Positions 4,392 through 20,911 of a stretch of DNA of 64,000 nucleotides are shown here, in pieces; the first letter of the stretch is position 1; each line of letters starts with the position of its first letter. Source of the stretch: Flavobacterium ammonificans (GTDB taxonomy: Bacteria; Bacteroidota; Bacteroidia; Flavobacteriales; Flavobacteriaceae). The DNA lies in assembly GCF_020886115.1 (NCBI RefSeq), contig NZ_AP025185.1:806001-870000 (forward strand). The letters are read 5' to 3'. The notes below the pieces were generated by a model that saw only the letters and a program-made list of their open reading frames with translations, did not search any database and was not told the origin of the DNA. Both the position numbers and the translations under genes were made by a program.

Positions 4392-6722
4392 ATGAAAACA
4401 CAAATCACATTCGCTTCTTTGATGCTACTTCTAGCAACACAAGTGGAAGCACAAAAAAAATGGTCAGAAACACCTAAAGGGAGTTTTAATCGCATTGAAA
4501 ATACAGGTGGGCAAACCTTGGGCTATTCACCAAAATCAGGTGTAAAAATCATGACCGTTGACGGATTAGCGTTCAAGGATTTGAATAAAAACGGGAAATT
4601 AGACCGTTACGAAGATTGGAGACTACCGGTTGCCGAACGTGCCAAAGATTTGGCTAGTCAAATGACTGTAGAACAAATTGCTGGATTGATGTTGTACAGT
4701 CGCCATCAATCGGTTCCGGCGCAAGCAGGAGGTTACTTTGGCGGAACCTATAATGGCAAATCATTTCCAGAAAGTGGGGCTAAAGCTCACGATTTATCCG
4801 ATCAACAAAAAAACTTTTTAACGACAGATAATTTGCGTCACGTTTTGATGACATCGGTGGAGAACCCAACGGTATCTGCACTTTGGAATAACAATGTACA
4901 AGAATTAGTAGAAAGCATTGGAATGGGAATTCCAGCTAATAATAGTTCAGATCCAAGGCATGGAGCCAATAAAGATTCAGAATACAATGCCGGTTCAGGC
5001 GGTGCAATTTCGCAATGGCCAGAAGAATTAGGCTTAGCAGCCACTTTTGACCCTGCTATTACAGAACAATTTGGAACCATTGCCGCCAGAGAATACCGTG
5101 CTTTAGGTATTGCGACAGCATTATCTCCTCAAATTGATTTGGCTACAGAGCCAAGGTGGAACCGTTTTGTGGGGACTTTTGGCGAAGACCCAAAATTAGC
5201 AACCGATATGTCTAGAGCCTATGTGGATGGTTTTCAATCGTCACCAAAAACCATTGCAGCTTATGAAGGTTGGGGTAATCAAAGTGTGAATGCCATGATC
5301 AAACACTGGCCAAGTGGTGGTCCTGAAGAAGGTGGCCGTGACGGGCATTTTGCGTATGGCAAGTTTGCAGTTTATCCAGGAAATAATTTCGAAATGCATC
5401 TACAACCTTTTCTTGATGGGGCATTTAAATTAAATGGCGGGACTAAAAAAGCATCTGCCGTGATGCCGTATTATACGATTTCGTACAACCAAGATAAAAA
5501 GTACGGAGAGAATGTAGGGAATGGATTTAGCAAATACATCATTACTGATTTATTGAGAGACAAATACGGATACGATGGAGTAGTATGTACGGATTGGTTA
5601 ATAACCGGTGACGAAGGAAAAACACCGGATGTTTTTGCTGGAAAATCATGGGGAACCGAGAAAATGACTATTGCCGAAAGACATTATAAAGTAATGATGG
5701 CAGGCGTAGATCAATTTGGGGGCAACAACGATATCAAACCTGTTTTGGAAGCCTATCAAATGGGGGTTAAAGAACACGGTGAAGCCTTTATGCGCAATCG
5801 TTTTGAGAAATCAGCAGTACGTTTGTTGTTGAATATTTTTAGAGTAGGTTTATTTGAAAACGCTTATTTGGATCCAGAAGAAACTAAAGCTATCGTTGGG
5901 AAACCAGAGTTTATGAAAGCGGGTTATGATGCCCAATTGAAATCGATTGTTTTGATTAAAAATCAAAATAAGACCTTGCCAATTGCTAATGGAAAAACAG
6001 TATATGTTCCAAAAAGAACTACCCCACCTGGGGTGAATTTCTTTGGCATGCCAACACCAGAAAAAACAGAATATCCAGTGAATTTGGATTTGATTAAAAA
6101 ATATTACAATGTAACAGATGATCCTACAAAAGCTGATTTTGCCATAGTATTTATCAAAAGTCCAGTTAGTAATGGGTATAGTAGATCCGATAGAGAAGCA
6201 GGAGGGAATGGCTATGTGCCAATTAGTTTACAATTGAAAGATTATACAGCAACTGAGGCTAGAGCGCAAAGTATCGCAGCTGGAGATCCAGTAATTGATC
6301 CCACTATTACCAATCGTTCGTACTTGAATAAGACCTCAAAATCTAATTCATACCCTGATTTAAATACCATTTTAGACACCAAAAAAGCGATGAATGGGAA
6401 ACCAGTAGTAGTAGCGATTACCGTTTCTAATCCAATGGTTTTTGGCGAATTTGAAAAAGAAGTGGATGCAATTGTAGGAGAGTTTGGAGTACAAATGGAA
6501 GCTTTGTTGGATATTGTTTCTGGAAAAACAGAACCTTCGGGATTGTTACCTTTACAAATGCCGATGGATATGACAACAGTTGAAAAACAGTTGGAAGACG
6601 TGCCTCATGACATGATTCCATATCGCGATTCCAATGGAAATGTCTATGATTTTGGTTTTGGATTGAACTGGAAAGGCGTAATCAAAGATGCTAGAACCGA
6701 AAAATACAGTCTAAAAAAATAA
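4392..6722 (+). CDS. Secreted glycoside hydrolase family 3 enzyme
   Basis: 776 aa with signal peptide MKTQITFASLMLLLATQVEAQ. GH3 N-terminal barrel: the nucleophile is the Asp of VVCTDW at about residue 401; the substrate-pocket motif SPQIDLATEPRWNR and GTFGEDP are typical, as is the KHWPSGG region (Lys-His pair). The GH3 C-terminal alpha/beta sandwich starts near SIVLIKNQNKTLPI, with a fibronectin-like end FGFGLNW. Residues about 61-74 (DLNKNGKLDRYEDW) resemble an EF-hand calcium loop inserted before the barrel. Likely a periplasmic or surface beta-glucosidase or related exo-glycosidase; linkage specificity not readable. Followed by a terminator at 6731-6762. Confidence 0.9.
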   Translation: MKTQITFASLMLLLATQVEAQKKWSETPKGSFNRIENTGGQTLGYSPKSGVKIMTVDGLAFKDLNKNGKLDRYEDWRLPVAERAKDLASQMTVEQIAGLMLYSRHQSVPAQAGGYFGGTYNGKSFPESGAKAHDLSDQQKNFLTTDNLRHVLMTSVENPTVSALWNNNVQELVESIGMGIPANNSSDPRHGANKDSEYNAGSGGAISQWPEELGLAATFDPAITEQFGTIAAREYRALGIATALSPQIDLATEPRWNRFVGTFGEDPKLATDMSRAYVDGFQSSPKTIAAYEGWGNQSVNAMIKHWPSGGPEEGGRDGHFAYGKFAVYPGNNFEMHLQPFLDGAFKLNGGTKKASAVMPYYTISYNQDKKYGENVGNGFSKYIITDLLRDKYGYDGVVCTDWLITGDEGKTPDVFAGKSWGTEKMTIAERHYKVMMAGVDQFGGNNDIKPVLEAYQMGVKEHGEAFMRNRFEKSAVRLLLNIFRVGLFENAYLDPEETKAIVGKPEFMKAGYDAQLKSIVLIKNQNKTLPIANGKTVYVPKRTTPPGVNFFGMPTPEKTEYPVNLDLIKKYYNVTDDPTKADFAIVFIKSPVSNGYSRSDREAGGNGYVPISLQLKDYTATEARAQSIAAGDPVIDPTITNRSYLNKTSKSNSYPDLNTILDTKKAMNGKPVVVAITVSNPMVFGEFEKEVDAIVGEFGVQMEALLDIVSGKTEPSGLLPLQMPMDMTTVEKQLEDVPHDMIPYRDSNGNVYDFGFGLNWKGVIKDARTEKYSLKK

Positions 6723-6730
6723 TTGAATTC

Positions 6731-6762
6731 AAAAGCCATTTACAACAATGTAAAGGGCTTTT
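6731..6762 (+). terminator. Intrinsic terminator after the GH3 gene
   Basis: AAAAGCC (6731-6737) pairs with GGCTTTT (6756-6762); an inner TTTAC/GTAAA extends the stem with one mismatch. GTTTTTT follows. Confidence 0.7.
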
Positions 6763-6819
6763 GTTTTTTCAATCAATTAATCAACTACTTTTATAAGTAG
6801 TAATTAACAACCAATACTT

Positions 6820-7437
6820 ATGAGATTAGTAAACACCTTAATTTTTGCCCTTTTGATAGTTACAAGTTTTGGCCATGCACAAACAACGGTTTCGGGCAAG
6901 GTGTTGAATCATAAAAACAAACCCGTTTCAGGTGCAATATTGTATTTGGATACTATAGCAACTAATGTGATTACCAATAAGTCGGGAGGATATAGCTTAA
7001 TTGTCCCGGATAGTATAAAAAACATAAAGGTTTATTCTAAAAAATTGGGTTGGTTGAGCAGTGCTTACGCCAAAGAATCAACCATGGACTTTATGTATTT
7101 AGATACGGCTCCAGCCGACCAATCCTTAACACCGCCTAATGGATTAAATCCTGATAAAGACAAAACTACCGTTTCATTTCGTACTATTTACGACATGATG
7201 CGTGGGCGAATTGCCGGCGTTGTCGTGCAACAAGACAATACAATTATTGTAAGAGGAATAAATTCTATCAGAAACAATTCAGAACCATTATTTATAGTCG
7301 ATGGAAATTTTGTCCAAAGTATTGACTTTGTTGTGCCCAATGAAGTAAAAAGCATTACTGTTTTGAAAGATGCAGAAGCATCCATTTATGGTTCAAGAGG
7401 AGCGAGTGGTGTTATTGTAATCAAATTGAAAAAATAA
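6820..7437 (+). CDS. Orphan TonB receptor plug domain protein
   Basis: 205 aa. Signal peptide MRLVNTLIFALLIVTSFGHAQ, then a CarboxypepD_reg-like beta-sandwich (TTVSGKVLNHKNKPVSGAI, about residues 22-95), then a TonB-receptor plug-like segment: TIYDMMRGRIAGVVVQ, IIVRGINSIRNNSEPLFIVDG and VKSITVLKDAEASIYGSRGASGVIVI (about 125-203). This order is the N-terminus of a SusC-type receptor, but the protein stops where the 22-stranded barrel should begin. At 205 aa it cannot form a channel. The ORF ends cleanly and the next gene is convergent, so no barrel remnant follows. Could be a decoy or modular plug, or a gene truncated long ago. Confidence 0.8.
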   Translation: MRLVNTLIFALLIVTSFGHAQTTVSGKVLNHKNKPVSGAILYLDTIATNVITNKSGGYSLIVPDSIKNIKVYSKKLGWLSSAYAKESTMDFMYLDTAPADQSLTPPNGLNPDKDKTTVSFRTIYDMMRGRIAGVVVQQDNTIIVRGINSIRNNSEPLFIVDGNFVQSIDFVVPNEVKSITVLKDAEASIYGSRGASGVIVIKLKK

Positions 7438-7447
7438 CCTCCTTTTA

Positions 7448-9103
7448 TTAGTCTGATTTAGTGCCAATTCTCATTACTTTCATTTCAAACTCTTCTCTTG
7501 GTCCTCTAGCCTTATTTTTGATTTGTGAACGATAGTTATAAATCGTGGAGGGAGAATAGCGAAGAAAGTCGGCAATTTTAGCACTGTCTTTAATGCCAAG
7601 ACGAATCAAGGCAAAAATCCGTAACTCAGGATTTAAGAGTTCCCCTTTTTTGACAACTAAAGTTTCTGGTTCTGTCAATAAAGTTTTGAACTCTTCCACA
7701 AAAGTGGGAAAAAGTTGGACAAAGGTTTGATCAAATTGCGAATAGAATTCTTTCAATTCTTTGTCGATAAACGCTTTTGATTTAACGGTACTGATTAAGT
7801 CGTTTACTTTACCAGCAGTCGCCATCACTTTTAGTTTTTGGCTATACTCTTCCATTTTTCCAATATAAATGGAACATTGATCCATATAGCGCCCAATATA
7901 AATTTCTTTCAGTAAACTCGTTTCGGCAAGTGCTGAATTCGTTTGATTTAATGCCGTGTTAAATCCTTGTAATTGTTGGTTTGCAATTGAAAGTTGGTGA
8001 TTTGCTTGTTCCACATTTTTTTGTGCTTTAGCCAGTTTGTTCATTTGTTTGAAGAGCAAAATCAAAACACCAATAAGAAACAAAGACAAAATACTAACGC
8101 TAATCAAAAAGACAATTAACTGCGATTGATTTGACTTGTTTTTGGCTTCATAACTTTCGTTAATGATGGGTAACATTTTTGATATTTCGTAGGTTCGAAG
8201 TTTAGAATTGCAAAAAACTGCATCGTCAAGAGAACGTTTTGTGTATTCATAGGCGGTTTCGATTTCTCCTTCTTCATGCAACAATAATGCTAGTTTTCGT
8301 AAAGAAATATTTTCTTTTTTTACTAATTCCAAGTCTGAAATGGCCGAAATAGCGAGCCATTTTTTCTCTTCTTCTTTCGATTTTCTGTACCGAAAAGTTT
8401 CCGATACTATATAAGCGATAACCGCTCTATTAGGATCAGTTTTTGGAGTTCTATTAAAAACAGGAAACAATAATTGATAGGCTTGCAGGTATTTTTTTTG
8501 ATTTAGCAATTGGCCTGAAAGGGCAATATAGTATAGCGTTTCGTTTTTAGGCAAATGTGCAATTGCTTTGGTTCGAAACAACTTAGATTGCTGGATGTAT
8601 TTCTTTTTCTCATCAGCGTCGTTGGCATAATTGGCTAAGCCGCCATATACGTTCTCTTTAGTCCAAAAAAAACGTCCTTTTTCTGTAGGCATTATTTGGG
8701 ACTCAACACTATTTAGAACAGCTAGGGCTTGGTCATAAGTACCTAAAGTGGTAAGGATAGAGGCTAAATCAAATTGGGATTGGTGTAATTCTTTTTTAGT
8801 CAATAAAGTTGCGGTATTTACCGCCTTTCTGGCATACACAAGAGCCGAATCAGATTGATAGGATCTGTACTCATGGAATAATTTAGTGTATATGGTATAA
8901 CGGACTTGTGCAGTTGAGGCTTCGTATATAGTGTTTTTAAGACCACGAATTCGATCGTTTTTTATTTTTAAATACTCTTCAGATTTGGCTAAACTGAGGT
9001 CGAGTTCTTTTTTAAAATAGGCAAAGTCTTTTTGAGCCAACACTATGCTTGAAAAAAGCAGAGCACTGAAATAAATCCAATTTTTTAAAAAAGAAAAGTT
9101 CAT
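7448..9103 (-). CDS. TPR/DUF6377 membrane-anchored transcriptional regulator (SusR-like)
   Basis: 551 aa. Signal sequence at 1-23; TPR-like helices in the first 320 residues, expected outside the inner membrane; one strong membrane segment about 324-347 (LIVFLISVSILSLFLIGVLILLF); a coiled coil after it (KLAKAQKNVEQANHQL); then a cytosolic part with an LKEIYIGRYMDQCSIYI core typical of DUF6377. It ends in a LuxR-like helix-turn-helix (GIKDSAKIADFLRYSPSTIYNYRSQIKNKA). This is the architecture of the SusR-type one-component sensors of Bacteroidetes carbohydrate loci, so the plug gene and GH3 next door are plausible targets. Gene convergent with the plug gene, 10 bp apart. Confidence 0.8.
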   Translation of the reverse strand: MNFSFLKNWIYFSALLFSSIVLAQKDFAYFKKELDLSLAKSEEYLKIKNDRIRGLKNTIYEASTAQVRYTIYTKLFHEYRSYQSDSALVYARKAVNTATLLTKKELHQSQFDLASILTTLGTYDQALAVLNSVESQIMPTEKGRFFWTKENVYGGLANYANDADEKKKYIQQSKLFRTKAIAHLPKNETLYYIALSGQLLNQKKYLQAYQLLFPVFNRTPKTDPNRAVIAYIVSETFRYRKSKEEEKKWLAISAISDLELVKKENISLRKLALLLHEEGEIETAYEYTKRSLDDAVFCNSKLRTYEISKMLPIINESYEAKNKSNQSQLIVFLISVSILSLFLIGVLILLFKQMNKLAKAQKNVEQANHQLSIANQQLQGFNTALNQTNSALAETSLLKEIYIGRYMDQCSIYIGKMEEYSQKLKVMATAGKVNDLISTVKSKAFIDKELKEFYSQFDQTFVQLFPTFVEEFKTLLTEPETLVVKKGELLNPELRIFALIRLGIKDSAKIADFLRYSPSTIYNYRSQIKNKARGPREEFEMKVMRIGTKSD

Positions 9104-9216
9104 AATTAGTGTGTTCTATTGTAAAGTAGTGTCAAACAAGATTCATGAGTATAATCTCAATGCTGTAAATTGAAATTCGTCTTTTGAATCTGCAATGTAT
9201 GAAAATCTAATAAGAA

Positions 9217-9243
9217 CAAAGATAAAGAGTAAGGCTGTCACAA
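9217..9243 (-). promoter_or_regulatory. Promoter of the SusR-like regulator gene
   Basis: Read on the minus strand, TATCTTTG (9224 to 9217) is a perfect -7 element; TTG (9243 to 9241) lies 16 bp upstream. Predicted leader of about 105 nt to the ATG at 9103. Confidence 0.45.
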
Positions 9244-9268
9244 TAGCTCCAGTAGTTGTTAAAAAAAA

Positions 9269-9294
9269 TCCGTTTTCATACTATTGAAAACGGA
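9269..9294 (-). terminator. Leftward intrinsic terminator-like hairpin
   Basis: TCCGTTTTCA (9269-9278) pairs with TGAAAACGGA (9285-9294). Read leftward, the stem is followed by a run of eight T (9261-9268 complement), the form of an intrinsic terminator. It lies upstream of the regulator's own promoter and downstream (leftward) of another -7-like element, TACCTTTG at 9355 to 9348, so it may end a short leftward transcript. Confidence 0.5.
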
Positions 9295-9320
9295 AATTAA
9301 ATGTGTTATTCACATTAATT

Positions 9321-9347
9321 GAAAAGAGTGGGGACACTTTTACAGTA
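9321..9347 (+). repeat. Direct repeat with small hairpin, copy 1
   Basis: GAAAAGA, then GTGGGGACA, then TTTTACAGTA. The same series recurs at 9797-9825 with small changes. Here AGTG (9327-9330) and CACT (9335-9338) can pair around a GGGA loop; in copy 2 the arms differ but still pair. Confidence 0.5.
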
Positions 9348-9647
9348 CAAAGGTACAACTTAATAGGATTCATTTATCGATTTGTATTTTTCCCGGTTTT
9401 TTGTAACCTAACAGAATGAGTAGTAAAAAATCTACTTTATTGATAATCGTGACATTATATAAGACAGACAAAAACAACCCTTTTTTGAAAAAATTCAGGG
9501 AAAAAGTTAATTTTTAGAGGGTTTTCAGCAGGCGGGTGCTAGTATTTAAAATTATTTAAATAATTGAAAATCAATTTTTTAAATTAAAAACAAACATTAA
9601 ATCAACCAATAAATAGTTGCTGATCTAAAAAAAATTTAAAAAAAATC

Positions 9648-9697
9648 AAAAAGTTGTAAAATCACAACTTTTATTAAAATGATATGAATTTACTTTG
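9648..9697 (+). promoter_or_regulatory. Palindromic promoter copy A (putative Crp/Fnr class II site)
   Basis: AAAAGTTGT (9649-9657) and ACAACTTTT (9664-9672) form a 9-bp perfect inverted repeat with a 6-nt spacer. TTACTTTG at 9690-9697 resembles the -7 element with one mismatch. From the T ending ACAACT (9669) to the G ending the -7 box is 28 nt, the same as at copies B and C. The palindrome centre would be near -41.5 if transcription starts about 5 nt after the -7 box, and no -33 TTTG is present, so it looks activator-dependent. It reads toward the structured RNA and the 95-aa gene. Confidence 0.65.
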
Positions 9698-9789
9698 GCA
9701 TATGAAAATCAAGAAAACATAACTCGATCTAAACAGTTAGTTTTATTTGTGTTGGATTTAAAAAAAAAGATTGATAATTTAAAAAAATA

Positions 9790-9980
9790 ATGATTAGAAA
9801 AGATGTGGGGACATTTATAACAGTATGCATTTTTAATAAAATCATGTAGTGTTTTTCTAATCATTTCCCGTGGCAATTTACTTTAGTATTGTCGATTTAG
9901 TTTCAACAATCGCAAATGCCACGGGAAACCAACCACCATACCGGCTAACCTCTTGCCGGTATGGTTTTGGTTTTTTTGGA
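9790..9980 (+). ncRNA. Candidate structured RNA or leader with three consecutive stems
   Basis: Stem I: ATGATTAGAAAA (9790-9801) with TTTTCTAATCAT (9853-9864), 12 bp perfect. Stem II: TTTCCCGTGGCA (9864-9875) with TGCCACGGGAAA (9917-9928), 12 bp perfect, with an inner ATTGT/ACAAT. Stem III: ACCATACCGGC (9935-9945) with GCCGGTATGGT (9955-9965), 11 bp perfect, followed by TTTGG and TTTTTTT, like an intrinsic terminator. The three stems abut one another, and the 95-aa gene starts 20 bp after the block. Either an independent sRNA driven by promoter A or an attenuating leader. The family is not recognised by eye. Confidence 0.6.
9797..9825 (+). repeat. Direct repeat with small hairpin, copy 2
   Basis: Second copy of the element at 9321-9347. 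ATGT (9803-9806) pairs with ACAT (9811-9814) around GGGG; both arms differ from copy 1 but remain complementary. It lies inside the loop of the first large stem of the structured RNA. Confidence 0.5.
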
Positions 9981-9999
9981 CAAAACTTAAATTTTACAA

Positions 10000-10287
10000 A
10001 TGAATATTTTAAAGTACATCATTAACGAAGAAAATATTCCAATCATTTTTAGTGAAACGATTAGTCATCAAGAAATTCTTCAAACGGGTATTGCCGCAGG
10101 ATATTTAATTTTATATTATGAGGTAGAATCAAATGTATTCTCTGTTAAATGTTTTGGACAAAGCACTACTTTAAATTTAAGTTCTACTGACCAGGACGAA
10201 GCAATAATAACCACATACTTGAATAGTAAATTTATAAACAGAGTTGACTTTTCAGAACTATTAGGTCTTGATTTTTGTAACTCTTAG
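10000..10287 (+). CDS. Small protein of unknown function (95 aa)
   Basis: 95 aa, cytosolic by appearance, with no signal peptide or membrane segment. Opening MNILKYIINEENIPIIFSETISHQEIL; the middle alternates hydrophobic residues (AAGYLILYYE, FSVKCFGQST) as in a small alpha/beta domain, and the end is acidic (SELLGLDFCNS). I do not recognise a family. It sits directly behind the terminator-like stem III, so its expression may depend on read-through from promoter A. It is convergent with the first crp gene (6 bp between stops). The length and the intact frame make it likely real. Confidence 0.6.
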   Translation: MNILKYIINEENIPIIFSETISHQEILQTGIAAGYLILYYEVESNVFSVKCFGQSTTLNLSSTDQDEAIITTYLNSKFINRVDFSELLGLDFCNS

Positions 10288-10293
10288 TTGAAT

Positions 10294-10872
10294 TTATTTT
10301 TTCTCCTTGCTTATTATTTTACTCAAATAAGTCGTGTCTACTCCTAGAAAAGATGCTAAGTGTTTTTGACTCAGTCGAGAAAAAATAGCAGCTTGTTTTT
10401 CAAAAAGATAGCTGTAGCGGTTCTCTGCACTCATAAAGCGTAAGGTACTTGCTTGTTCTTGGTAATCACAGAGTTTATCAAACAATTCATGATTAGCAAA
10501 TAAGGCCGCTTTATGGTTGTTTTTCATGATGAAATCAAGAGTGGTTTTCTTAATCGAAATGATTTCGCCATCTTCAAGCGCATCAATATAATGCTCGCTC
10601 GGTTTTTGTTTATGGTAACTACTAATTGAGGTAATGAATTCACCTTCTTTTACAAACCAAGTATTCACCTCTTTACCTTCATTAATAATGTAAACGCGTA
10701 GTAATCCTTTTTGGACATAAAAGATTTCTTTACATATTTCTCCTTCACGTAATAGAATTTCTTTTTTAGCAATTTTTTTGGTAAACATTAAAGAAACCAA
10801 TTTTTCAACTACGTGACGTTCTTTTTTTTGAAAGGAAATACCAGATTCTAGGACTTTTTCAATGATATTCAT
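10294..10872 (-). CDS. Crp/Fnr family transcriptional regulator, paralogue 1
   Basis: 192 aa. Cyclic-nucleotide-binding-like beta-roll at about 25-115 (EILLREGEICKEIFYVQKGLLRVYI, NTWFVKEGEFITSI), a long dimerisation helix about 120-150, and a C-terminal winged helix with recognition region RLSQKHLASFLGVDTTYLSKII. The Arg-Ser/Thr pair of a true cAMP pocket is not evident, so the ligand is unknown, and no Cys cluster for an Fe-S centre is seen. Third gene of a tandem of three paralogues read leftward from the promoter near 12207-12239; 51 bp separate it from the middle gene. Confidence 0.9.
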   Translation of the reverse strand: MNIIEKVLESGISFQKKERHVVEKLVSLMFTKKIAKKEILLREGEICKEIFYVQKGLLRVYIINEGKEVNTWFVKEGEFITSISSYHKQKPSEHYIDALEDGEIISIKKTTLDFIMKNNHKAALFANHELFDKLCDYQEQASTLRFMSAENRYSYLFEKQAAIFSRLSQKHLASFLGVDTTYLSKIISKEKK

Positions 10873-10923
10873 GATAGGGGCTTTTGTTAAATTTGGGTAA
10901 TTTTTTAAAATATAGAATTAGGT

Positions 10924-11499
10924 TTATTTAAACTGATTTACAATTTTACTTAAGTAGGTGCTATCTACTCCAATATAAGAGGCCAAATGTTTTTGGCTCA
11001 ATCGTTCTAAGATTTCGGGCTTTCGCTCTTTAAGAAAAAGGTAGCGCTTTTCGGATGTCATATAACGTAGCATATCGCATTGATCAGAATATTCGCAAAG
11101 GTTGTTGAATAATTCATCTATAGCAAATAAGGCAAATTTATGATTGCTTTTCAAAACCATATCCACCACATCTTTTCGAATGCTCAATACCACACTATCT
11201 TCTAATGCCTGAATGTATTCAGTAGCAGGTTCTTGTTTGTGGAAACTTTTAACTGATGTAATAAATTCTCCTTCTTTAACAAACCAAGTGTTCACTTCTT
11301 TGTCGTCATTAAGTAAATACACACGAAACAATCCCGATTGAACATAAAAAATATGTTTGTTTACATCTCCTGCATGTAAAATATGGTTTCCTTTTTTAAT
11401 TTTTTTGGTAAAAGGCAACGTAGCTAATTGTTCAAGAAGTGGTATATCTTTCTTTTTAAAGAATTTTTCAAGTCCAATAACGCGGTTGATAATATTCAT
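10924..11499 (-). CDS. Crp/Fnr family transcriptional regulator, paralogue 2
   Basis: 191 aa with the same layout as its two neighbours: beta-roll (HILHAGDVNKHIFYVQSGLFRVYL, NTWFVKEGEFITSV), dimer helix, HTH (RLSQKHLASYIGVDSTYLSKIV). The HTH recognition segments of the three are nearly the same, so they may compete for the same DNA site, while the sensor domains differ more. This fits paralogues with one operator and different signals. Only 25 bp separate it from paralogue 3, supporting one transcript. Confidence 0.9.
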   Translation of the reverse strand: MNIINRVIGLEKFFKKKDIPLLEQLATLPFTKKIKKGNHILHAGDVNKHIFYVQSGLFRVYLLNDDKEVNTWFVKEGEFITSVKSFHKQEPATEYIQALEDSVVLSIRKDVVDMVLKSNHKFALFAIDELFNNLCEYSDQCDMLRYMTSEKRYLFLKERKPEILERLSQKHLASYIGVDSTYLSKIVNQFK

Positions 11500-11524
11500 G
11501 GTATTTAGTATTTAGTAAACAAGT

Positions 11525-12103
11525 TCACTCTTTATGACTTGCAATTATTTTATTCAAATAAGTAGTTTCTATGCCCAAGAAAGAAGCTACATGCTTTTGA
11601 CTCACTCGCTCCAAGACCTCAGGGTTTCTATTTTTCAAAAACTCGTATTTTTTTTCAGCAGATAGAATTCGTAAATATTGACATTGATCACTGTATTCGC
11701 ATAACTTTATATACAATTGTTTGATAGCAAAAAGTGCTAATTTATGATTGTGTTTGAGCACCATAGAATAAGTGCTTTTTTTGAACGATATAATTTCACA
11801 ATCTTCTAAGGCTTGAATGAATTCTTCGCTAGGAGTTTCATTATAATAGCTGTTAACAGAACTTATAAATTCATTTTCCTTGACAAACCAAGTGTTAATT
11901 TCTTTTTCCTCATATACCATGTATACTCTCAGCAAACCTTTTTTTACATAAAAAATACGATCGTTGATTTCGCCTGCGCGAAGTAAAAATTCTTTTTTCT
12001 TGTATTTTTTGCTAAAAAGAAATTGGGCAAATTTTTGAATAAAAGAAAAGTCAGATTCTTTAGGAGCAAGCTTTGGGTCTTTTTTGTCAGATTGAGATTT
12101 CAT
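11525..12103 (-). CDS. Crp/Fnr family transcriptional regulator, paralogue 3 (promoter-proximal)
   Basis: 192 aa from the ATG at 12103, matching the 191-192 aa of the two paralogues. The longer frame to 12175 would add 24 residues the others lack. Beta-roll EFLLRAGEINDRIFYVKKGLLRVYM and NTWFVKENEFISSV; HTH RVSQKHVASFLGIETTYLNKII. The N-terminus (KSQSDKKDPKLAPKESD) is charged and differs from the paralogues. First gene of the triplet. Its predicted leftward promoter (TATATTTG at 12214 to 12207) abuts palindrome B, so autoregulation is likely. Confidence 0.88.
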   Translation of the reverse strand: MKSQSDKKDPKLAPKESDFSFIQKFAQFLFSKKYKKKEFLLRAGEINDRIFYVKKGLLRVYMVYEEKEINTWFVKENEFISSVNSYYNETPSEEFIQALEDCEIISFKKSTYSMVLKHNHKLALFAIKQLYIKLCEYSDQCQYLRILSAEKKYEFLKNRNPEVLERVSQKHVASFLGIETTYLNKIIASHKE

Positions 12104-12206
12104 GGGTAAAAGATTTTGGGTTTGGGTAATTGTAAATCGGTGGTTCAAGCCAATTATTTTTAGCACATAAAACACTCTAAAACGCTTAAAAAGCCGATTA
12201 ACAACA

Positions 12207-12287
12207 CAAATATATTGAAAAAAATCCTGTTTTTTTCAAAAAGTTGTGATTTCACAACTTTTTAATGAAACCAGCAGTTTATTTTTG
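12207..12287. promoter_or_regulatory. Divergent promoter region with palindrome copy B
   Basis: AAAAAGTTGTGA (12238-12249) and TCACAACTTTTT (12252-12263) are a 12-bp perfect inverted repeat with a 2-nt centre. Rightward, TATTTTTG (12280-12287) matches TAnnTTTG and ends 28 nt after ACAACT. Leftward, TATATTTG (12214 to 12207) is a perfect -7 element; its TTG (12239 to 12237), 22 bp away, lies inside the palindrome's left arm. One site can therefore act on both the crp triplet and the rightward unit. Confidence 0.7.
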
Positions 12288-12331
12288 GCCAATGAATAAA
12301 AGAAGAAGTATTAAAACAACTAATTAGTAAC

Positions 12332-12421
12332 ATGAAAACAAGATGGCTTGTAAATTTTTTAAAAGAAAATCAAATTTACTCATCGTGCCCGAAAGCGAGA
12401 TACTTGTCTTTTATACAATGA
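12332..12421 (+). CDS. Possible micro-ORF 1 (29 aa)
   Basis: ATG 12332 to TGA 12421, opening MKTRWLVNFLKENQ and ending RYLSFIQ; basic, with one amphipathic stretch. It is the first ATG about 40 nt downstream of the expected start of the transcript from promoter B. Its stop overlaps the next ATG as ATGA (12418-12421), an arrangement often seen in translational coupling. Too short to judge coding by eye. Confidence 0.3.
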   Translation: MKTRWLVNFLKENQIYSSCPKARYLSFIQ

Positions 12422-12507
12422 TAAAAAAAATGAAAAAACGACATCCGCATTTAAATCCGGAAAAAATAGTAAAGAAACTATACCCTTATTATTCAATAAA
12501 AAAATAG
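12418..12507 (+). CDS. Possible micro-ORF 2 (29 aa, very basic)
   Basis: ATG 12418 to TAG 12507: MIKKMKKRHPHLNPEKIV, then KKLYPYYSIKK. Strongly cationic. It begins inside the stop of micro-ORF 1. The pair could also be one older ORF split by a frameshift. No family recognised. Confidence 0.3.
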   Translation: MIKKMKKRHPHLNPEKIVKKLYPYYSIKK

Positions 12508-12525
12508 TTAAAACGATTTATTTAT

Positions 12526-12626
12526 AATTCAATTGTGTTGCCCCTAGACGAAGATCCCAAATCTTTACTGTTTAATCAACAAAAAACTAGTCGCTATTGC
12601 GGCTAGTTTATGATTAAAATTGAATT
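12526..12626 (+). ncRNA. Nested hairpin element, possible small RNA 3' end or terminator
   Basis: Three nested stems: AATTCAATT (12526-12534) with AATTGAATT (12618-12626); TTTAATCA (12571-12578) with TGATTAAA (12611-12618); and AAACTAGTCGC (12584-12594) with GCGGCTAGTTT (12599-12609) around loop TATT, with one G-U pair. The outer and middle stems share base 12618, so they cannot both be fully formed. The element lies at the end of the unit driven by promoter B and just before promoter C, so it probably ends or processes that transcript. Confidence 0.45.
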
Positions 12627-12654
12627 ATTTTATAATATTTAGTAGTATTTTTTC

Positions 12655-12704
12655 AAAAACTTGTGATTTTGCAACTTTTTAATGGAATTTGTATTTTATG
12701 TTTG
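12655..12704 (+). promoter_or_regulatory. Palindromic promoter copy C, upstream of the adhesin operon
   Basis: AAAAACTTGT (12655-12664), a 6-nt spacer GATTTT, then GCAACTTTTT (12671-12680): the same core TTGT-N6-RCAA as copies A and B with two mismatched pairs. The flanks match copy B closely (TTTTTTCAAAAA before, CAACTTTTTAATG after). TATGTTTG (12697-12704) is a perfect -7 element whose final G is 28 nt after GCAACT, identical spacing to A and B. No -33 TTTG. It should drive the operon starting at 13024. Confidence 0.7.
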
Positions 12705-12842
12705 CAAACATTTTTATATTAATTGTAAGAATAATTTGTTTTATTTTCAGTGCAATAGTATTTGTAGAGTTTCAATTTTCATTTTTTTAAGTTTTTTAAA
12801 TACAAATTAGTAATTGTGCCCCATTAAAAAATAATTCAAATA

Positions 12843-13013
12843 ATGATGATAAAATTAATTCTAGTTGCCCAAAACATTTCCCCCAGTATGTCTTTTATGG
12901 CGATTTTGTTTTTTCGAAATATTAAATTGAATATAACTCCACCTTATATGGCAACTAGCCATCACGTAACGCTTTTTCTGAGGCATTACAGTATTAAAAA
13001 AAATAAAATATAA
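12843..13013 (+). CDS. Possible small ORF in the adhesin operon leader (56 aa)
   Basis: Two adjacent ATGs (12843, 12846) open a 56-codon frame: MMIKLILVAQNISPSMSFMA, then ILFFRNIKL; it ends YSIKKNKI. It ends 10 bp before the first adhesin ATG. A hydrophobic first half could act as a signal-like segment. It may be a leader peptide or merely chance in an AT-rich leader. Confidence 0.3.
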   Translation: MMIKLILVAQNISPSMSFMAILFFRNIKLNITPPYMATSHHVTLFLRHYSIKKNKI

Positions 13014-13023
13014 TTATAAGTTC

Positions 13024-14403
13024 ATGAAAAATTTATTTAGTAAAAATGCTCTCCTTCTAATTGTTGCAATACTTTTTTTCGGTTTGTCCAATGCCCAAGT
13101 TAAAATAGGAGAAAACCCTACATCAATTAACCCATCGTCAATTTTAGAGATAGAAAGTGCAAACAAAGGTTTTTTAATGCCTCGTATTGCATTAACGGCT
13201 ACCAATAGTGCCAGTCCGCTTGCGAGCCATGTTGCAGGGATGGTCATATACAACACCGCTACGGCTGGTACGGCTCCAAATGCAGTTGTGCCTGGTATCT
13301 ATTATAATGATGGTACACGCTGGATAGCAAGCTCAAATACAATTACCAGTGCAGATACTACAGATGATGCTTGGGTAAATAATCCTACAGCTGGTCGTGT
13401 AGAACTTGGTAAAACATCAACAGGTGCCAATAGAGCTAGTAATGGTCTTGCAAAATTCGCAATATCAGATGATGGTAAAGTGGGTATAGGGACTGATCCT
13501 CTTCCTATTGCAGAGCTTACTATTGCTACCGATGCCGGTCAAGCGTTGCGATTGACTCCACATAACCTCACAGACCCAAATGGCTCAACCCGTATGCAAA
13601 TTAGGAATGATCAAACTAGGGTAATCAATTTTGGTATAACAAACTCTGCAGGTACTTTTGCAGGTTCAGCAGTTACAGAAAACTCGGCCTTTTTGTTAAC
13701 TTCAGGAACTGATACAAAACTAACTTTCGGGACAGATAATAGGCCAAAAATGACCATTTTTGCTGATGGGAAAATGGGAATTGGAACTATTTTTCCTAGT
13801 CAAGCAGCTACAGCAGAGCTTGATATCAATGGAAGTTTAAGAATTAGAGGGATAGACCTTTCTACTGATTTTACAGGTAAAAATATATTGTTAACGGATG
13901 CCTCTGGAAATGTTAGCCAAATTACTACTCAAAATTTTGTTTCCCAATTGGGTATTCCGAGTATAGTACTTGCAGGAAAAAGTTCGTCTACATCAACAAC
14001 TATTGAGAACGACTTAATTAAACATAATTTAAATCTAAGCAGTATAGGTATAAATATGGGATCTGGTTGGAATGCTACCAATCGCACCTATACCGTTCCG
14101 GGAAATGGTTACTATGAGATCTATGCCTCATCCGACTTTACCCCATTAAATTCTGATGTTAAAATAAGATTAGTCTTAGAAACTACGGGTGCTTCGTCTC
14201 AAAAAATTTATCTTTCGAGTGCTGATCCTTTATCAACTGTACCTGGCAATACATCTAGTCTTTCAGGAACTGCTAATTTATCTTTGACTAGTGGCGATGT
14301 GGTTAGAATTTACCTTGAAGCAGGTTATAACAATGGTTCAGCACCTAATACGTATCAAATATCGAATCAATTAAGTACAATTACGAGAAAGACCTACAAC
14401 TAA
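13024..14403 (+). CDS. Secreted repeat/tail-fibre-like surface protein (459 aa)
   Basis: Signal peptide about 1-24 (LLLIVAILFFGLSNAQ). An N-terminal module about 27-102 (VKIGENPTSINPSSILEIES, MPRIALTATNSASPL, GIYYNDGTRWI) is shared with the 624-aa protein two genes downstream. Two copies of a tail-fibre-like motif follow (KVGIGTDPLPIAEL; KMGIGTIFPSQAATAEL). The C-terminal 140 residues look like a jelly roll (YTVPGNGYYEIYASSDF, VVRIYLEAGYN, LSTITRK), perhaps C1q-like; that is my inference. No T9SS sorting domain at the C-terminus. First gene of the operon behind promoter C. Confidence 0.7.
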   Translation: MKNLFSKNALLLIVAILFFGLSNAQVKIGENPTSINPSSILEIESANKGFLMPRIALTATNSASPLASHVAGMVIYNTATAGTAPNAVVPGIYYNDGTRWIASSNTITSADTTDDAWVNNPTAGRVELGKTSTGANRASNGLAKFAISDDGKVGIGTDPLPIAELTIATDAGQALRLTPHNLTDPNGSTRMQIRNDQTRVINFGITNSAGTFAGSAVTENSAFLLTSGTDTKLTFGTDNRPKMTIFADGKMGIGTIFPSQAATAELDINGSLRIRGIDLSTDFTGKNILLTDASGNVSQITTQNFVSQLGIPSIVLAGKSSSTSTTIENDLIKHNLNLSSIGINMGSGWNATNRTYTVPGNGYYEIYASSDFTPLNSDVKIRLVLETTGASSQKIYLSSADPLSTVPGNTSSLSGTANLSLTSGDVVRIYLEAGYNNGSAPNTYQISNQLSTITRKTYN

Positions 14404-14430
14404 AAATAAAACTATTTAATTTTTCAAATT

Positions 14431-14925
14431 ATGCAACTCCTTAAAAAAATTCATATTGGTAAATTCTTACTATTAGTAATCTTACTTTCATTTAGCACTA
14501 CTAAAGCACAACACCTAATTAGCCCACCCTATTTTTATTATGATGGCACTAACACCATTCAGGGTAAAATGGTAACAGGCTTGCCTAACCAGTACCTCAC
14601 AATAGATCCAACGGGTAGAAATTTAAAATTTATTGATGCAGTGAATTCTACAACTATTGTAAAAAAATCCACGAATTATACTATTCTTCCCTCCGATAAT
14701 ACCATTTTAGCCGATGCTACAACTGCTGCCTTTACACTCACTCTACCACCGGCTAATACAAACCTAGGTAAGATTTTAATTATTCGCAAAATAGACGAAA
14801 CCGCCAACGCAATAACATTTGATTTACCAATTAAAATTTCTGAAACCACTAGTTTCACCACACTAAACATTAACACTACCATTCGCATACAAAGCGATGG
14901 TACAGCTTGGTATAAAATTGATTAA
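14431..14925 (+). CDS. Secreted small beta-rich protein (164 aa)
   Basis: Signal peptide about 1-26 (FLLLVILLSFSTTKAQ). The mature part is Thr/Asn/Ile-rich: TIVKKSTNYTILPSDNTILA, AFTLTLPPANTNLGKILIIRK, IRIQSDGTAWYKID. This series is what is seen at the ends of phage tail-fibre-like beta-prism or beta-helix modules. No sorting domain or catalytic residue. It lies 27 bp after the preceding gene and 46 bp before the next, in the same operon, and is probably an accessory component of the same surface structure. Function unknown. Confidence 0.6.
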   Translation: MQLLKKIHIGKFLLLVILLSFSTTKAQHLISPPYFYYDGTNTIQGKMVTGLPNQYLTIDPTGRNLKFIDAVNSTTIVKKSTNYTILPSDNTILADATTAAFTLTLPPANTNLGKILIIRKIDETANAITFDLPIKISETTSFTTLNINTTIRIQSDGTAWYKID

Positions 14926-14971
14926 TTAACCTTTACAAAGCATTTAAATACTATCTCTCATTCCATATAAA

Positions 14972-16846
14972 ATGAAAAATAAAATTAAACATATCATCGT
15001 TGCAATGGCTTTAACCCTAGGTTTAAGCTATACCGCAACTGCACAAACTACTGCGCAAAAAATTGGTAAAAATCCTACTAACATTGCGTCAAGTGCAGTC
15101 TTAGACATTGAAAGCGACAACAAAGGCGTGTTGTTCCCTCGTGTGGCTTTAACCTCAACTATTCTTGCAGGGCCGATTGTATCACCAACAACTGGGCTTA
15201 CAGTTTTTAACACTGTCACGGACGGTACTGCGCCCAATACTGTAACCCCAGGCTATTATTATTGGAACGGTTCAAGATGGGTAAAATTAGCTGTTGAAAC
15301 ACCTCCAATCGCTTTTTCTAAAACCGTATATGTAAATACTGCTTTACCGAGTACTGCTACTATTTTTGATGAAGCTAATCCTCCTTTATCAAATGATAAT
15401 GCCTTAAAATCAAAGGATGACAATTTATATATTGGTAACGATGGTTCTACTTGGACGTATGACAATACTGGTGCAGGATCTTATAAAACGTATGCTGTAG
15501 CTGCTTCAACTCCTTTTAATCTAGCTTACACTGAAACCAATGCAGGAAATAATACAACGGGAAGCATTTGGAGGGCTGGAAACATAGGTATTGGAATTAA
15601 TAATCCATTAACTACATTGCATCTAAACAATCCTTTAGCTGCTACAAATACGGTGAATGCAAATGCACAAGTTTTTAGAATGCAGCGCACACAATCTCCA
15701 GGTATTAAATGGGAAAATATTGCTCAGTTTAATTTAGGAAGCTATGCTTCAACAACTGCACCGAATACTAGTGCAACTAGTAGATTAGATTTAGCAATGA
15801 ACGATGGCATGGGTGTTCAAACCAATAATATAATGACTTGGCAAGCCAATGGGAATGTGGGTATTGGAACCACTGCGCCTTCTAGATTTTTGGATGTAGT
15901 GAACAATTCCAATTCACACAATGGAATAATAGAGGCTGAAGGTCCTGTTTCGAATACCTACACAAGAGCAATGGCCATACGAATGAGAAGAGGTCCGTCT
16001 ACTGCGCCTACTGCCATTCAAACAAATGATGTGTCAGCCTTTGGATTTGCAGGTTACGATGGTTCAATATTTTCAACAACCTCGGCTGGAATGGCAGGTA
16101 TAGCAACAGAAAACTGGACAAGTTCTGCGAAAGGTATGGGGTTGGTTTTTAGTACAACAAATAATGCTACATCAACTCTGTCTGAACGTATGAGAATAAA
16201 TCATAATGGATTTGTTGGAATTGGTACTAATACTCCAATTTCATTGTTATCAAATACAAGTAGCAATATCAATGCTTCTAATAATATGGGGGTATCTACC
16301 CAATCTTTAACTTGGCAGCATAGTGGACCAGGTTTTGTTCATGCATTATACAATCCTGATATTACAGGTCATGGTTTGAATGTTAAAGTTCGAGGAAATC
16401 TTCCTTCAACAATCGCCTTTGAAGTAGGTCAAGCAAATACAGTAAATACAAGTTCAAGTCCCTTATTTAATGTATTAGGTAATGGCAATGTGGGTATTGG
16501 GACTTCAACACCAACATCAAGATTAGAAGTTAATGGTGCTGCAACCAATACAACAGCATTTAATGCAGGAGCTGGCACTACCATAGATTTTTCAAGAAGT
16601 AATTTGGCTTATACCACAGCAAGTCCAGGTAATACATTCACCTTATCTAACCTTAAAGATGGGGGTACCTATACTTTGGCCGTTCAAGGTAAAACTGCTG
16701 GGCAAGCAAGTTTTACAATAACTGGATTTACTGCATCAAATATCAAAAGTCCGAATAACGGTTTAACAGCTGAAGGTAAAGAGACCCTTTATACCTTTAT
16801 GGTCATGGGTACTTTTGTTTATTTTTATATGACAACTGGTCTTTAA
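14972..16846 (+). CDS. Secreted repeat/tail-fibre-like surface protein (624 aa)
   Basis: Signal peptide about 1-24 (HIIVAMALTLGLSYTATAQ). Residues about 28-108 repeat the N-terminal module of the 459-aa protein (KIGKNPTNIASSAVLDIESD, FPRVALTS, PGYYYWNGSRWVKL). At least four VGIGT-x-x-P-type motifs follow (NIGIGINNPLTTLHL, NVGIGTTAPSRFL, FVGIGTNTPISLL, NVGIGTSTPTSRLEV), spaced like elements of a trimeric fibre. The end (FMVMGTFVYFYMTTGL) is aromatic and lacks a T9SS domain. Likely a secreted fibre or surface coat component; export route beyond the signal peptide unknown. Confidence 0.7.
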   Translation: MKNKIKHIIVAMALTLGLSYTATAQTTAQKIGKNPTNIASSAVLDIESDNKGVLFPRVALTSTILAGPIVSPTTGLTVFNTVTDGTAPNTVTPGYYYWNGSRWVKLAVETPPIAFSKTVYVNTALPSTATIFDEANPPLSNDNALKSKDDNLYIGNDGSTWTYDNTGAGSYKTYAVAASTPFNLAYTETNAGNNTTGSIWRAGNIGIGINNPLTTLHLNNPLAATNTVNANAQVFRMQRTQSPGIKWENIAQFNLGSYASTTAPNTSATSRLDLAMNDGMGVQTNNIMTWQANGNVGIGTTAPSRFLDVVNNSNSHNGIIEAEGPVSNTYTRAMAIRMRRGPSTAPTAIQTNDVSAFGFAGYDGSIFSTTSAGMAGIATENWTSSAKGMGLVFSTTNNATSTLSERMRINHNGFVGIGTNTPISLLSNTSSNINASNNMGVSTQSLTWQHSGPGFVHALYNPDITGHGLNVKVRGNLPSTIAFEVGQANTVNTSSSPLFNVLGNGNVGIGTSTPTSRLEVNGAATNTTAFNAGAGTTIDFSRSNLAYTTASPGNTFTLSNLKDGGTYTLAVQGKTAGQASFTITGFTASNIKSPNNGLTAEGKETLYTFMVMGTFVYFYMTTGL

Positions 16847-16857
16847 TTTTATATCTA

Positions 16858-17739
16858 ATGATCACAAAATTAAAATTATTTTTAATCGTTGGTATTATCG
16901 CAATAGGTCAGAGCAAAAGTTATGGCCAAGTGGTAGGTACCCCCTATATTTTGCCAACAAATAACTTAACTGTAGTTAATTTTATTTATACCGGGGCAGA
17001 CCAACAATGGACAGTGCCATCTGGTGTTACCGAAATATTTGTTGATGTGATGGGGGCACAAGGAGGAACTCGTGGTTCAGTTCTTGGTGGCTCAGGCGGT
17101 AGAGTAAGATGCAAAATTCCAGTTACATCAGGTCAGATTTTGTATTTAACTGTTGGCGGCCAGCCTACAACCAACGTACCTGTATATGGTTTTGGTGGCA
17201 ATGGCGGTTTTCACATCTCCTTTCCAGCCACACAAAGGGCAATGGCAGGTGGTGGCCTAAGTGCCATTTCTACAGCTTTTCCTTTAACACAGGCTAATGC
17301 TTTAGTTATTGCAGCAGGCGGCGGTGGTGCGTCTGGTAACGCTAGTTTTAGTACCGCTGGCGGAGGAGGCCTTATAGGTGGTAGCATATCTGGTGATTAT
17401 GGAGGTTCGTTGATAGGTGGAAAAGGTGCTACACAGTCTGCCGGTGGGGCAGCAGGAGCAACTTATGACCCAAATTCAACGGCACCTACTGCTGGTAGCG
17501 CACTTAACGGCGGTAATGGGGGAATTGTCAATCCAGGTGCTGGCTTATCAGGCTGGAACGGCGGCGGCGGTGGTGGCGCTGGTTATTTTGGCGGCGGCGG
17601 CGGTGCTGGTGGTGGTAATGCACAAGCTGGCGGCGGTGGCGGCTCTTCATTTATAAATTTATCTTATGTAACGGTGGGTTCTATAAATATGGCTAATCAA
17701 AATAATAAAGGAAACGGTGTAATCAATATTTATTACTAG
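16858..17739 (+). CDS. Secreted glycine-rich domain protein (293 aa)
   Basis: Signal peptide 1-24 (MITKLKLFLIVGIIAIGQSKSYGQ). About residues 40-80 form a short beta domain (VNFIYTGADQQWTVPSGVTEIFVDVMGAQGG split by Gly turns). The rest is Gly-rich, with runs such as AAGGGGASG, NGGGGGGAGYFGGGGGAGGG and AGGGGGSSFI. This resembles the glycine-rich domain found in bacterial surface proteins and in the ALK/LTK ectodomain, where Gly stretches pack as polyproline-II-like helices. The ending KGNGVINIYY is typical of that fold. It starts 11 bp after the 624-aa gene. A structural or adhesive role is likely. Confidence 0.7.
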   Translation: MITKLKLFLIVGIIAIGQSKSYGQVVGTPYILPTNNLTVVNFIYTGADQQWTVPSGVTEIFVDVMGAQGGTRGSVLGGSGGRVRCKIPVTSGQILYLTVGGQPTTNVPVYGFGGNGGFHISFPATQRAMAGGGLSAISTAFPLTQANALVIAAGGGGASGNASFSTAGGGGLIGGSISGDYGGSLIGGKGATQSAGGAAGATYDPNSTAPTAGSALNGGNGGIVNPGAGLSGWNGGGGGGAGYFGGGGGAGGGNAQAGGGGGSSFINLSYVTVGSINMANQNNKGNGVINIYY

Positions 17740-17806
17740 TAACACTTACTAATTATTGAAATTTATATCGTAGTGCTATATTAAATACACTACAAGAAAT
17801 TATAAT

Positions 17807-19954: not shown

Positions 19955-19987
19955 TTAGTTTCTTTAAGAATCAAAATAATTCATAAT

Positions 19988-20899
19988 ATGAAAAAAATAA
20001 TTTGCTGGTTACTACTTATCCTCACGACTTGTGTGTATGCACAACAGGAACCACAATACACACAGTATATGTACAATCCTTCGGTAATTAATCCTGCCTA
20101 TTCAGGTTCTTTAGGTTACGGAACTTTATTCAGTTTGTATCGCACGCAGTGGATTGGTCTAGAAGGTGCGCCTAAAACAGTAAATCTAGCCTATCACCAA
20201 CCTATAGAAAACTCAAATTTAGGTATTGGAGGAAATGTTTTGCACGATGAAATTGGGCCTAGTACAACTACATCATTTGCAGTTGATTTATCCTACACAC
20301 TAAATTTTGAAAACGAAAGCAGATTGGCATTTGGGATCAAAGCGGGTGGTGCTTTATTGAATATAGATTACAATAAGTTGAATCATTTTAATCCTAGTGA
20401 CAACTCTTTTAGAAACAACATTAACAATCAATTTTCTCCAAATATAGGCGCTGGACTATTTTATTACACTAATACAACTTATCTTGGAGTGTCTGTGCCA
20501 ATGATTTTGGAAACTACTCAGTACGATGAATTTGCTTTTTCGGCAGCGAATAGACGCCAACATTTTTATGTAATGGGAGGTAAAGTATTTGATTTGGCCT
20601 ACAACCTAAAATTCAAACCGGCTTTTGTTGCCAAAATGGTAGCGGGTGCTCCTCTACAGGTTGACTTAACGGGGAACTTTTTAATCAATGAGAAATTCAC
20701 AGTAGGGCTTGCTTACAGATGGAGTGCAGCACTATCGGCTTTAGTAGGATTTAAGGTAAGTGATCGTATTTCTATAGGGTATGGTTATGATAGAGAAACA
20801 ACAAGGTTGTCAAATTTCAACTCGGGCTCTCATGAAATTTTCTTGCAATTTGATTTGTTTAAAATCACCCAACAAGTAGAAACGCCAAGATTCTTCTAA
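19988..20899 (+). CDS. PorP/SprF family type IX secretion membrane protein
   Basis: 303 aa, the usual family length. Signal peptide MKKIICWLLLILTTCVYAQ. Diagnostic start QQEPQYTQYMYNPSVINPAYSGS, then repeated amphipathic strands of an outer-membrane barrel (LGIGGNVLHDEIGPSTTTSF, FTVGLAYRWSAALSALVGF, ISIGYGYDRETTRLSNFNSG). Ends SHEIFLQFDLFK and a short tail. In Flavobacterium, SprF-type proteins pair with one type B cargo and are needed for its secretion or attachment. The upstream 715-aa adhesin is its obvious partner, 33 bp away. Confidence 0.93.
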   Translation: MKKIICWLLLILTTCVYAQQEPQYTQYMYNPSVINPAYSGSLGYGTLFSLYRTQWIGLEGAPKTVNLAYHQPIENSNLGIGGNVLHDEIGPSTTTSFAVDLSYTLNFENESRLAFGIKAGGALLNIDYNKLNHFNPSDNSFRNNINNQFSPNIGAGLFYYTNTTYLGVSVPMILETTQYDEFAFSAANRRQHFYVMGGKVFDLAYNLKFKPAFVAKMVAGAPLQVDLTGNFLINEKFTVGLAYRWSAALSALVGFKVSDRISIGYGYDRETTRLSNFNSGSHEIFLQFDLFKITQQVETPRFF

Positions 20900-20911
20900 T
20901 TAATAACAACA

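Follow-up and report, generated by a model that had tools for sequence, protein, structure and literature searches.

At class II promoters of Escherichia coli, CRP or FNR occupies two half-sites that are centred at -41.5 and adjoin the core promoter, and the upstream hexamer is missing or poor. We know of few Bacteroidetes Crp/Fnr proteins with known operators. Here we describe three copies of one palindrome, sites A, B and C, which flank three tandem Crp/Fnr genes (the triplet) of Flavobacterium ammonificans (contig NZ_AP025185.1, positions 806,001 to 870,000; this stretch of 64,000 nucleotides (nt) is referred to as the window, and positions are those of the window unless another genome is named). 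We consider it likely that the three sites are operators of the triplet, activating from a class II position. They resemble the E. coli class II promoters in having a palindrome at -41.5 and a poor or missing upstream hexamer, and differ from them in the half-site, which is TTGT(G/A) rather than TGTGA (CRP) or TTGAT (FNR), and in the Bacteroidetes -7 box, TAnnTTTG.

Among the closest described systems are the HcpR regulators, Crp/Fnr members of which some are predicted to have very small regulons located next to the regulator gene; their motifs are TTGAC-N4-GTCAA, GTAAC-N4-GTTAC and TGTGA-N6-TCACA, and their main target is hcp, according to the parts of the papers available to us (PMC1274295, PMC12750200). 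As far as those parts go, the window shares with HcpR a Crp/Fnr protein with a small predicted regulon near its own gene, the N4 between 5-bp half-sites seen in two of the HcpR motifs, and motif changes that track residues 180 and 181; the motifs themselves differ, and hcp is not among the targets that we propose. In the HcpR-SnoA system of Bacteroides thetaiotaomicron, a protein of the Crp family shares its promoters with a locus for a regulatory RNA, and both act on them, as described in the accessible part of a preprint (PMC13370916). The window departs from that arrangement in that its RNA lies behind the regulator's putative site, and the likeness is one of description. A literature search covering open-licence PMC papers found no description of a motif such as that of A, B and C.

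Three palindromes with one geometry

Reading of the window sequence confirmed the three palindromes (Table 1), which share the putative operator sequence TTGTR-N4-YRCAA. In each, the last base of RCAACT lies exactly 28 nt from the G that ends a -7 box (9669 to 9697 in A, 12259 to 12287 in B, 12676 to 12704 in C), as the preliminary description had stated. The sigma-A box TAnnTTTG of Flavobacterium psychrophilum is placed at -12 to -5 in the available part of its description (PMC9723704); transcription would thus start 5 nt past the G, and the palindrome centre would fall at -41.5. The class II position claimed for the sites therefore stands, with start sites that are predicted from sequence, and by sequence two sites of a distant genome (see below) have it as well. 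The claim that a -33 box is absent holds for A and B, which have no TTG at gaps of 14-26 nt before the -7 box, so that these promoters look weak without an activator; C does have a TTG, at 25 nt, a distance judged too far.

We found that the sites are exclusive to this locus within the genome. With up to three mismatches, the pattern AAAAASTTGTRAWWTYRCAACTTTTWAT matched only A, B and C in the whole 2.41 Mb, a single contig of 2,409,408 bases (5 matches over both strands; 0 for the reversed-pattern control). The exact pattern TTGTRAWWTHRCAA-N22-TWNNTTTG occurs at three places in the genome, again A, B and C, at three in strain GENT11, at two in a metagenome-assembled genome (MAG) of an uncultured Bacteroidetes, and at none in two other genomes. 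A stricter form, TTGTGAWWTHRCAA-N22-TANNTTTG, to which B, C and the MAG sites conform but A does not, was present in 1 of 395 genomes of the class, the own one (0 of the 394 others), and its reversed control gave one match, in genome G248. Random scattering of the motif across the genome, the outcome that the preliminary description had named as a refutation, was thus not seen in these scans.

The MAG was informative. Its Crp/Fnr protein is the closest distant homologue of the triplet (36-39% identity across alignments) and has a TYLNKI helix. A core, TTGTGAATTAACAA, begins 377 bp before the start codon of the gene and in the same direction, and another, TTGTGATTTCGCAA, begins 34 bp past the stop codon; the gene that comes after it encodes a response regulator with Response_reg and GerE domains. 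Behind each core stands TAATTTTG, whose end has the offset seen in the window, and the two cores are the sole exact matches of that genome, both beside the homologous regulator gene. Because the search that found the MAG sites used only the core, their equal spacing is an independent test; the spacing had been fixed in the preliminary description before these sites were known, and the core letters were later widened to include them.

Strain GENT11 aligns to window positions 5929-12572 at 96.8%. Site A and palindrome B are identical in the two strains, while intergenic DNA nearby differs by 8% (9104-9590) and 27% (12293-12343). The third GENT11 site (760777 of that genome) has the same core as C and lies directly before an adhesin gene of the type IX secretion system (T9SS). 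The GENT11 T9SS adhesin-PorP/SprF-OmpA operon matches that of the window from the C-terminus of the adhesin onward (84-98%), and its leading genes differ: the head of the operon (window 12573-17800) is variable, with two genes that have a counterpart at 39% and 57%, and the adhesins, of 2,062 and 715 amino acids (aa) in the two strains, are alike over 269 aa at 84%. As a C-type core precedes the adhesin despite the differing leading genes, the link between site and adhesin appears to have outlived the rearrangement.

Looser patterns were also scanned. The 24-mer AAAANTTGTNNNNNNRCAANTTTT matched in 7 of 60 relatives, counting the own genome, and TTGT-N6-RCAA-N{8,38}-TANNTTTG in all 60; among the own-genome matches listed for the latter, 3 of 16 have the exact spacing, namely B, C and a third at 2032442 of the genome (core TTGTGGCGGAGCAA). 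At 640749-640792 of GENT11 a site, TTGCAAAATCACAACTTTTT, and a -7-like box stand at equal spacing (2 mismatches) shortly before an open reading frame (ORF), a possible fourth target; this site has no entry in the two-mismatch list of the own genome. At 1635371-1635418 of the own genome a lone half-site with its flank, GAAATCACAACTTTTTTGAAAA, resembles A and lies between two genes.

Table 1. Features around sites A, B and C, in window positions; promoters and transcription starts are predicted.
Feature	Positions	Strand	Size or core	-7 box	Remarks
Site A	9648-9672	+	core TTGTAAAATCACAA, 9654-9667	TTACTTTG, 9690-9697	predicted start ~9702
Structured RNA	9702-9978	+	~277 nt		stem-loops, the last one terminator-like
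95-aa ORF	10000-10287	+	95 aa		follows closely on the RNA terminator; without hits in Pfam or NCBIfam at the thresholds applied
Crp/Fnr paralogue 1	10294-10872	-	192 aa		recognition helix VDTTYLSKI; GENT11: 14 synonymous, 3 non-synonymous codon changes
Crp/Fnr paralogue 2	10924-11499	-	191 aa		recognition helix VDSTYLSKI; GENT11: 4 synonymous, 0 non-synonymous
Crp/Fnr paralogue 3	11525-12103	-	192 aa from ATG at 12103		recognition helix IETTYLNKI; GENT11: 9 synonymous, 4 non-synonymous
Candidate -7 box of triplet operon	12207-12214	-		TATATTTG, ending at 12207	centre of B at -48.5 from predicted start
Site B	12238-12263	+	core TTGTGATTTCACAA, 12244-12257	TATTTTTG, 12280-12287	predicted start ~12292
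54-aa ORF	12343-12507	+	54 aa		after B; at E 1e-3 in own genome only, of 60 searched
Site C	12655-12680	+	core TTGTGATTTTGCAA, 12661-12674	TATGTTTG, 12697-12704	predicted start ~12709
T9SS adhesin gene run	13024-22837	+			glycine-rich protein 16858, CHU_C adhesin 17807, PorP/SprF 19988, OmpA 20912

The Crp/Fnr triplet

Paralogues 2 and 3 are 55% and 49% identical to paralogue 1, and all three have an N-terminal cNMP_binding domain (PF00027, E 1.4e-10 to 4.2e-15, above the cut-off). No Pfam helix-turn-helix model matched them at E 1e-3; a C-terminal helix-turn-helix is indicated by alignment with 15 homologues (many rows partial) and with PDB entry 3dn7 to its end. The latter, a cyclic nucleotide binding regulatory protein, is the best match among solved chains (profile positions 24-188, E 7.3e-23), and its recognition helix, TPEYLSEIRK, is unlike the TYL[SN]KI of the triplet. 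As had been claimed, the recognition helices of the triplet are nearly identical, which makes its proteins likely binders of the sites, and no codon change relative to GENT11 falls inside them. In an alignment of 18 proteins, some of which end before or within the helix, TYL[SN]KI is confined to the triplet and the homologue from the MAG (L036 of genome G037 was left out of the reading of homologue helices). A profile search at E 1e-3 found five Crp/Fnr-like proteins in the genome, and the two outside the triplet have the helices TATESCIRLL and TSRPTFNIII. The group is rare: at E 1e-30 it was present in 2 of the 60 relatives counting the own genome, and in 0 of 36 others in the genus; at E 1e-33 it was present in 3 of the 395 class genomes counting the own one, the other two having the helices SQETLSRI and QPESLSRI.

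The triplet proteins stay below the cut-off of the NCBIfam equivalog PRK11753 for cAMP-activated CRP (28.9-42.5 bits against 266). For the NCBIfam Fnr subfamily, with a cut-off of 228, two proteins score 20.3 and 27.1 bits and the third is unlisted. By their putative operator the proteins do not match HcpR either, the sites being TTGTR-N4-YRCAA and none of the three motifs given in the accessible HcpR descriptions. A viral scan with the regulator alignment gave 154 stretches that match a pattern, with no relative among them, and a search of plasmid proteins gave 54 records, every one below 60% identity.

In an alignment with what we take to be the CRP sequence, position 180 reads T, S, T and P in the three triplet proteins and the MAG protein, and position 181 is Thr. 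Residues R180 and E181 of CRP correlate with motif bases 3 and 6, according to the part of the study available (PMC1274295). Thr at 181 would fit the T that replaces A at base 6, the feature marking TTGT off from TTGA, and the residues at 180 would fit a base 3 that is T in place of G, which FNR-like motifs have too. We scanned 11 further homologue loci with TTG-N8-CAA, from 700 bp before to 300 bp after the matched stretch; for L049, L050, L052, L053 and L055-L059 the scan covered the whole locus and used TTG[TC]-N6-[AG]CAA only. Within the stretch scanned, TTGA-N6-TCAA palindromes turned up at four of the 11 more distant loci (L045 at 4461, L048 at 4504, L051 at 5650 and L060 at 3535), and all four homologues have Glu at the position of CRP 181; the remaining 7 of 11 have neither a TTGA nor a TTGT palindrome there. 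The four palindromes could be the own operators of those homologues, and their pairing with Glu is as the recognition code would predict, the numbers being raw counts.

Activation and its alternatives

In the arrangement that we favour, the three sister proteins would bind, as dimers or heterodimers, to TTGTR-N4-YRCAA centred at -41.5 and, once bound, recruit RNA polymerase, activating a sigma-A promoter that has the -7 box and lacks the usual -33 box. The targets would be the structured RNA (A), the 54-aa ORF (B) and the T9SS adhesin-PorP/SprF-OmpA genes (C). We infer binding and activation, together with any assignment of the paralogues to the sites and the signal, from the sequence.

Several points weigh against this. 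A core TTGT-N6-RCAA stands beside the gene in 0 of the 11 other homologue loci, and the pairing of regulator and motif is supported by one independent genome only, where one of the two sites also has a TTG 17 nt before the -7 box that could serve as a -33 element. The GENT11 B promoter and the C of the window have 84% identity across 57 bp, so B and C may derive from a single promoter by copying and would then not be independent. The third GENT11 site, which was not used to make the pattern, was found with one that already held the spacing, and thus tests the existence and place of the site, not its spacing. The -7 octamer of A, TTACTTTG, departs from TAnnTTTG once. The core letters of the exact and stricter scans were widened once the window and MAG sites had been seen. 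At up to two mismatches, the pattern of core, spacing and -7 box is non-specific (matches against reversed control: 19 versus 7 in the own genome, 18 versus 3 in GENT11, 4 versus 7 in the MAG, 28 versus 16 in genome G062 and 2 versus 1 in G063), so exact matches alone are informative. Finally, palindromes as such are common in the window: the arms match at 10, 12 and 9 of 13 positions in A, B and C, and 123 of its 26-mers reach at least 9; the looser 24-mer, with up to three mismatches, gives 19 matches, which is at the chance level of shuffles (16.9, standard deviation 5.9). The significance of A, B and C lies in their near-exact common sequence and in the spacing: the box TAnnTTTG has 90 occurrences on both strands of the 64 kb, about one per 1,400 positions.

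The triplet might bind the sites and repress, the palindrome competing with RNA polymerase and B shutting off the divergent promoter of the triplet itself. Indeed, B is centred at -48.5 of the candidate triplet promoter, and the TTG of that promoter, 22 nt before its -7 box, sits at the palindrome edge. A centre at -41.5 is, however, the geometry of an activator and recurs at the two MAG sites, and A and B, with no TTG at -33, look like weak promoters unless an activator is present; we regard repression as unlikely. Another possibility is that the sites are copies of a duplicated or mobile promoter cassette bound by another regulator of the species. The common flanks of GENT11 B and window C, and the different places of the C-type site in the operons of the two strains, would agree with this. 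It is at odds with the MAG, where the same core and spacing stand in different flanks, as the only exact matches and both beside a homologous regulator, and with the different helices of the two other Crp/Fnr-like proteins of the genome, and we give it little credence.

Chance, by which A/T-rich intergenic palindromes would merely happen to precede -7-like boxes, could explain why loose palindrome matches occur in the window as often as expected. It would hardly explain the lack of the stricter pattern in the 394 other class genomes scanned, or why palindromes A and B stayed unchanged between strains while the intergenic DNA around them diverged, and we consider it highly improbable.

The predicted RNA downstream of site A

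The structured RNA proposed downstream of A was supported by predicted folding: positions 9700-9985 have a minimum free energy of -76.2 kcal/mol (z score -5.49, 0 of 200 shuffles). The RNA has no substitution relative to GENT11 and lies within an identical run of 453 bp; a run as long never arose when the differing columns were scattered uniformly 5,000 times, uniform scatter being a lenient null. No Rfam family, 6S RNA or other, matched the window at gathering score, and at E up to 1 the region 9300-13100 gave nothing credible, only SAM-II (E 0.33, on the minus strand and elsewhere) and a nematode snoRNA (9863-9977, E 0.29). A plasmid search with the RNA gave no match. DNA of positions 9600-10000 gave matches of 24-71 bases in 13 of the 60 relatives, counting the own genome.

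The RNA and the leader of the MAG regulator gene have in common an 18-mer, AAACCAACCANCATACCG (17 of 18 positions alike), which stands before a hairpin; 3 of 1,000 shuffled pairs score as high in local matching. As a search pattern, AAACCAACCANCATACCG was picked only once the match had been seen; it has one exact occurrence in each of three genomes, but with up to three mismatches its matches are close in number to those of the reversed control (8 versus 11, 10 versus 11 and 22 versus 13). Taken whole, the MAG leader is barely more stable in folding than shuffled sequence (z score -1.25, 11 of 100). Homology of the two RNAs is possible only. As the MAG leader that contains the 18-mer belongs to the regulator gene, RNA and protein could form one feedback unit there, somewhat like the HcpR-SnoA proposal. 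Regulator, operator and RNA might even be an old Bacteroidetes module, in which the TYL[SN]KI/TTGT subfamily of Crp/Fnr proteins is accompanied by a class II promoter from which a structured RNA is transcribed, an idea that is tentative and rather doubtful.

The RNA (9797-9825, plus strand) is also complementary over 27-29 nt to the predicted 5' end (9321-9347) of a minus-strand transcript, with 12 of 1,000 shuffled pairs scoring as high. That transcript has a box, TACCTTTG, ending at 9348, upstream of a SusR-like gene (7448-9103). A terminator-like hairpin lies downstream of its start (~9270-9293), so the transcript could be either a short RNA or a leader subject to attenuation.

Genes downstream of sites B and C

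The preliminary description had the unit linked to itself, and this part did not survive as written: although B stands upstream of the triplet, the class II promoter predicted at B reads in the opposite direction, toward the 54-aa ORF. The layout suggests direct autoregulation only in the MAG, where a site precedes the gene in the same direction, and not in the window. The 54-aa ORF is open in GENT11 too, with 2 synonymous and 3 non-synonymous codon changes. It has a weak paralogue, a 58-aa ORF at 801509-801619 of the own genome (41% identity over 37 aa), which follows an ORF that looks OmpA-like by eye; the two possibly belong to a small-protein family near T9SS genes.

Behind C, the T9SS adhesin operon of the preliminary description was recognized by its CHU_C adhesin, PorP/SprF and OmpA genes. 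The run leads with three ORFs without a Pfam match, and its layout suggests that the adhesin genes are co-transcribed.

Implications

The regulators, the operator, its spacing to the -7 box proper to the phylum and the residue at the position of CRP Glu181 agree with one another, and one distant genome repeats the layout. The arrangement has the look of a small control circuit in a river bacterium, dedicated to surface-adhesion genes, a conserved RNA and a very small protein. With it, class II activation by Bacteroidetes RNA polymerase could be studied in a small and concrete case, which would serve as well for the recognition code of a Crp/Fnr subfamily, for the action of three paralogues on one operator and for the control of T9SS adhesins together with a strongly conserved RNA.

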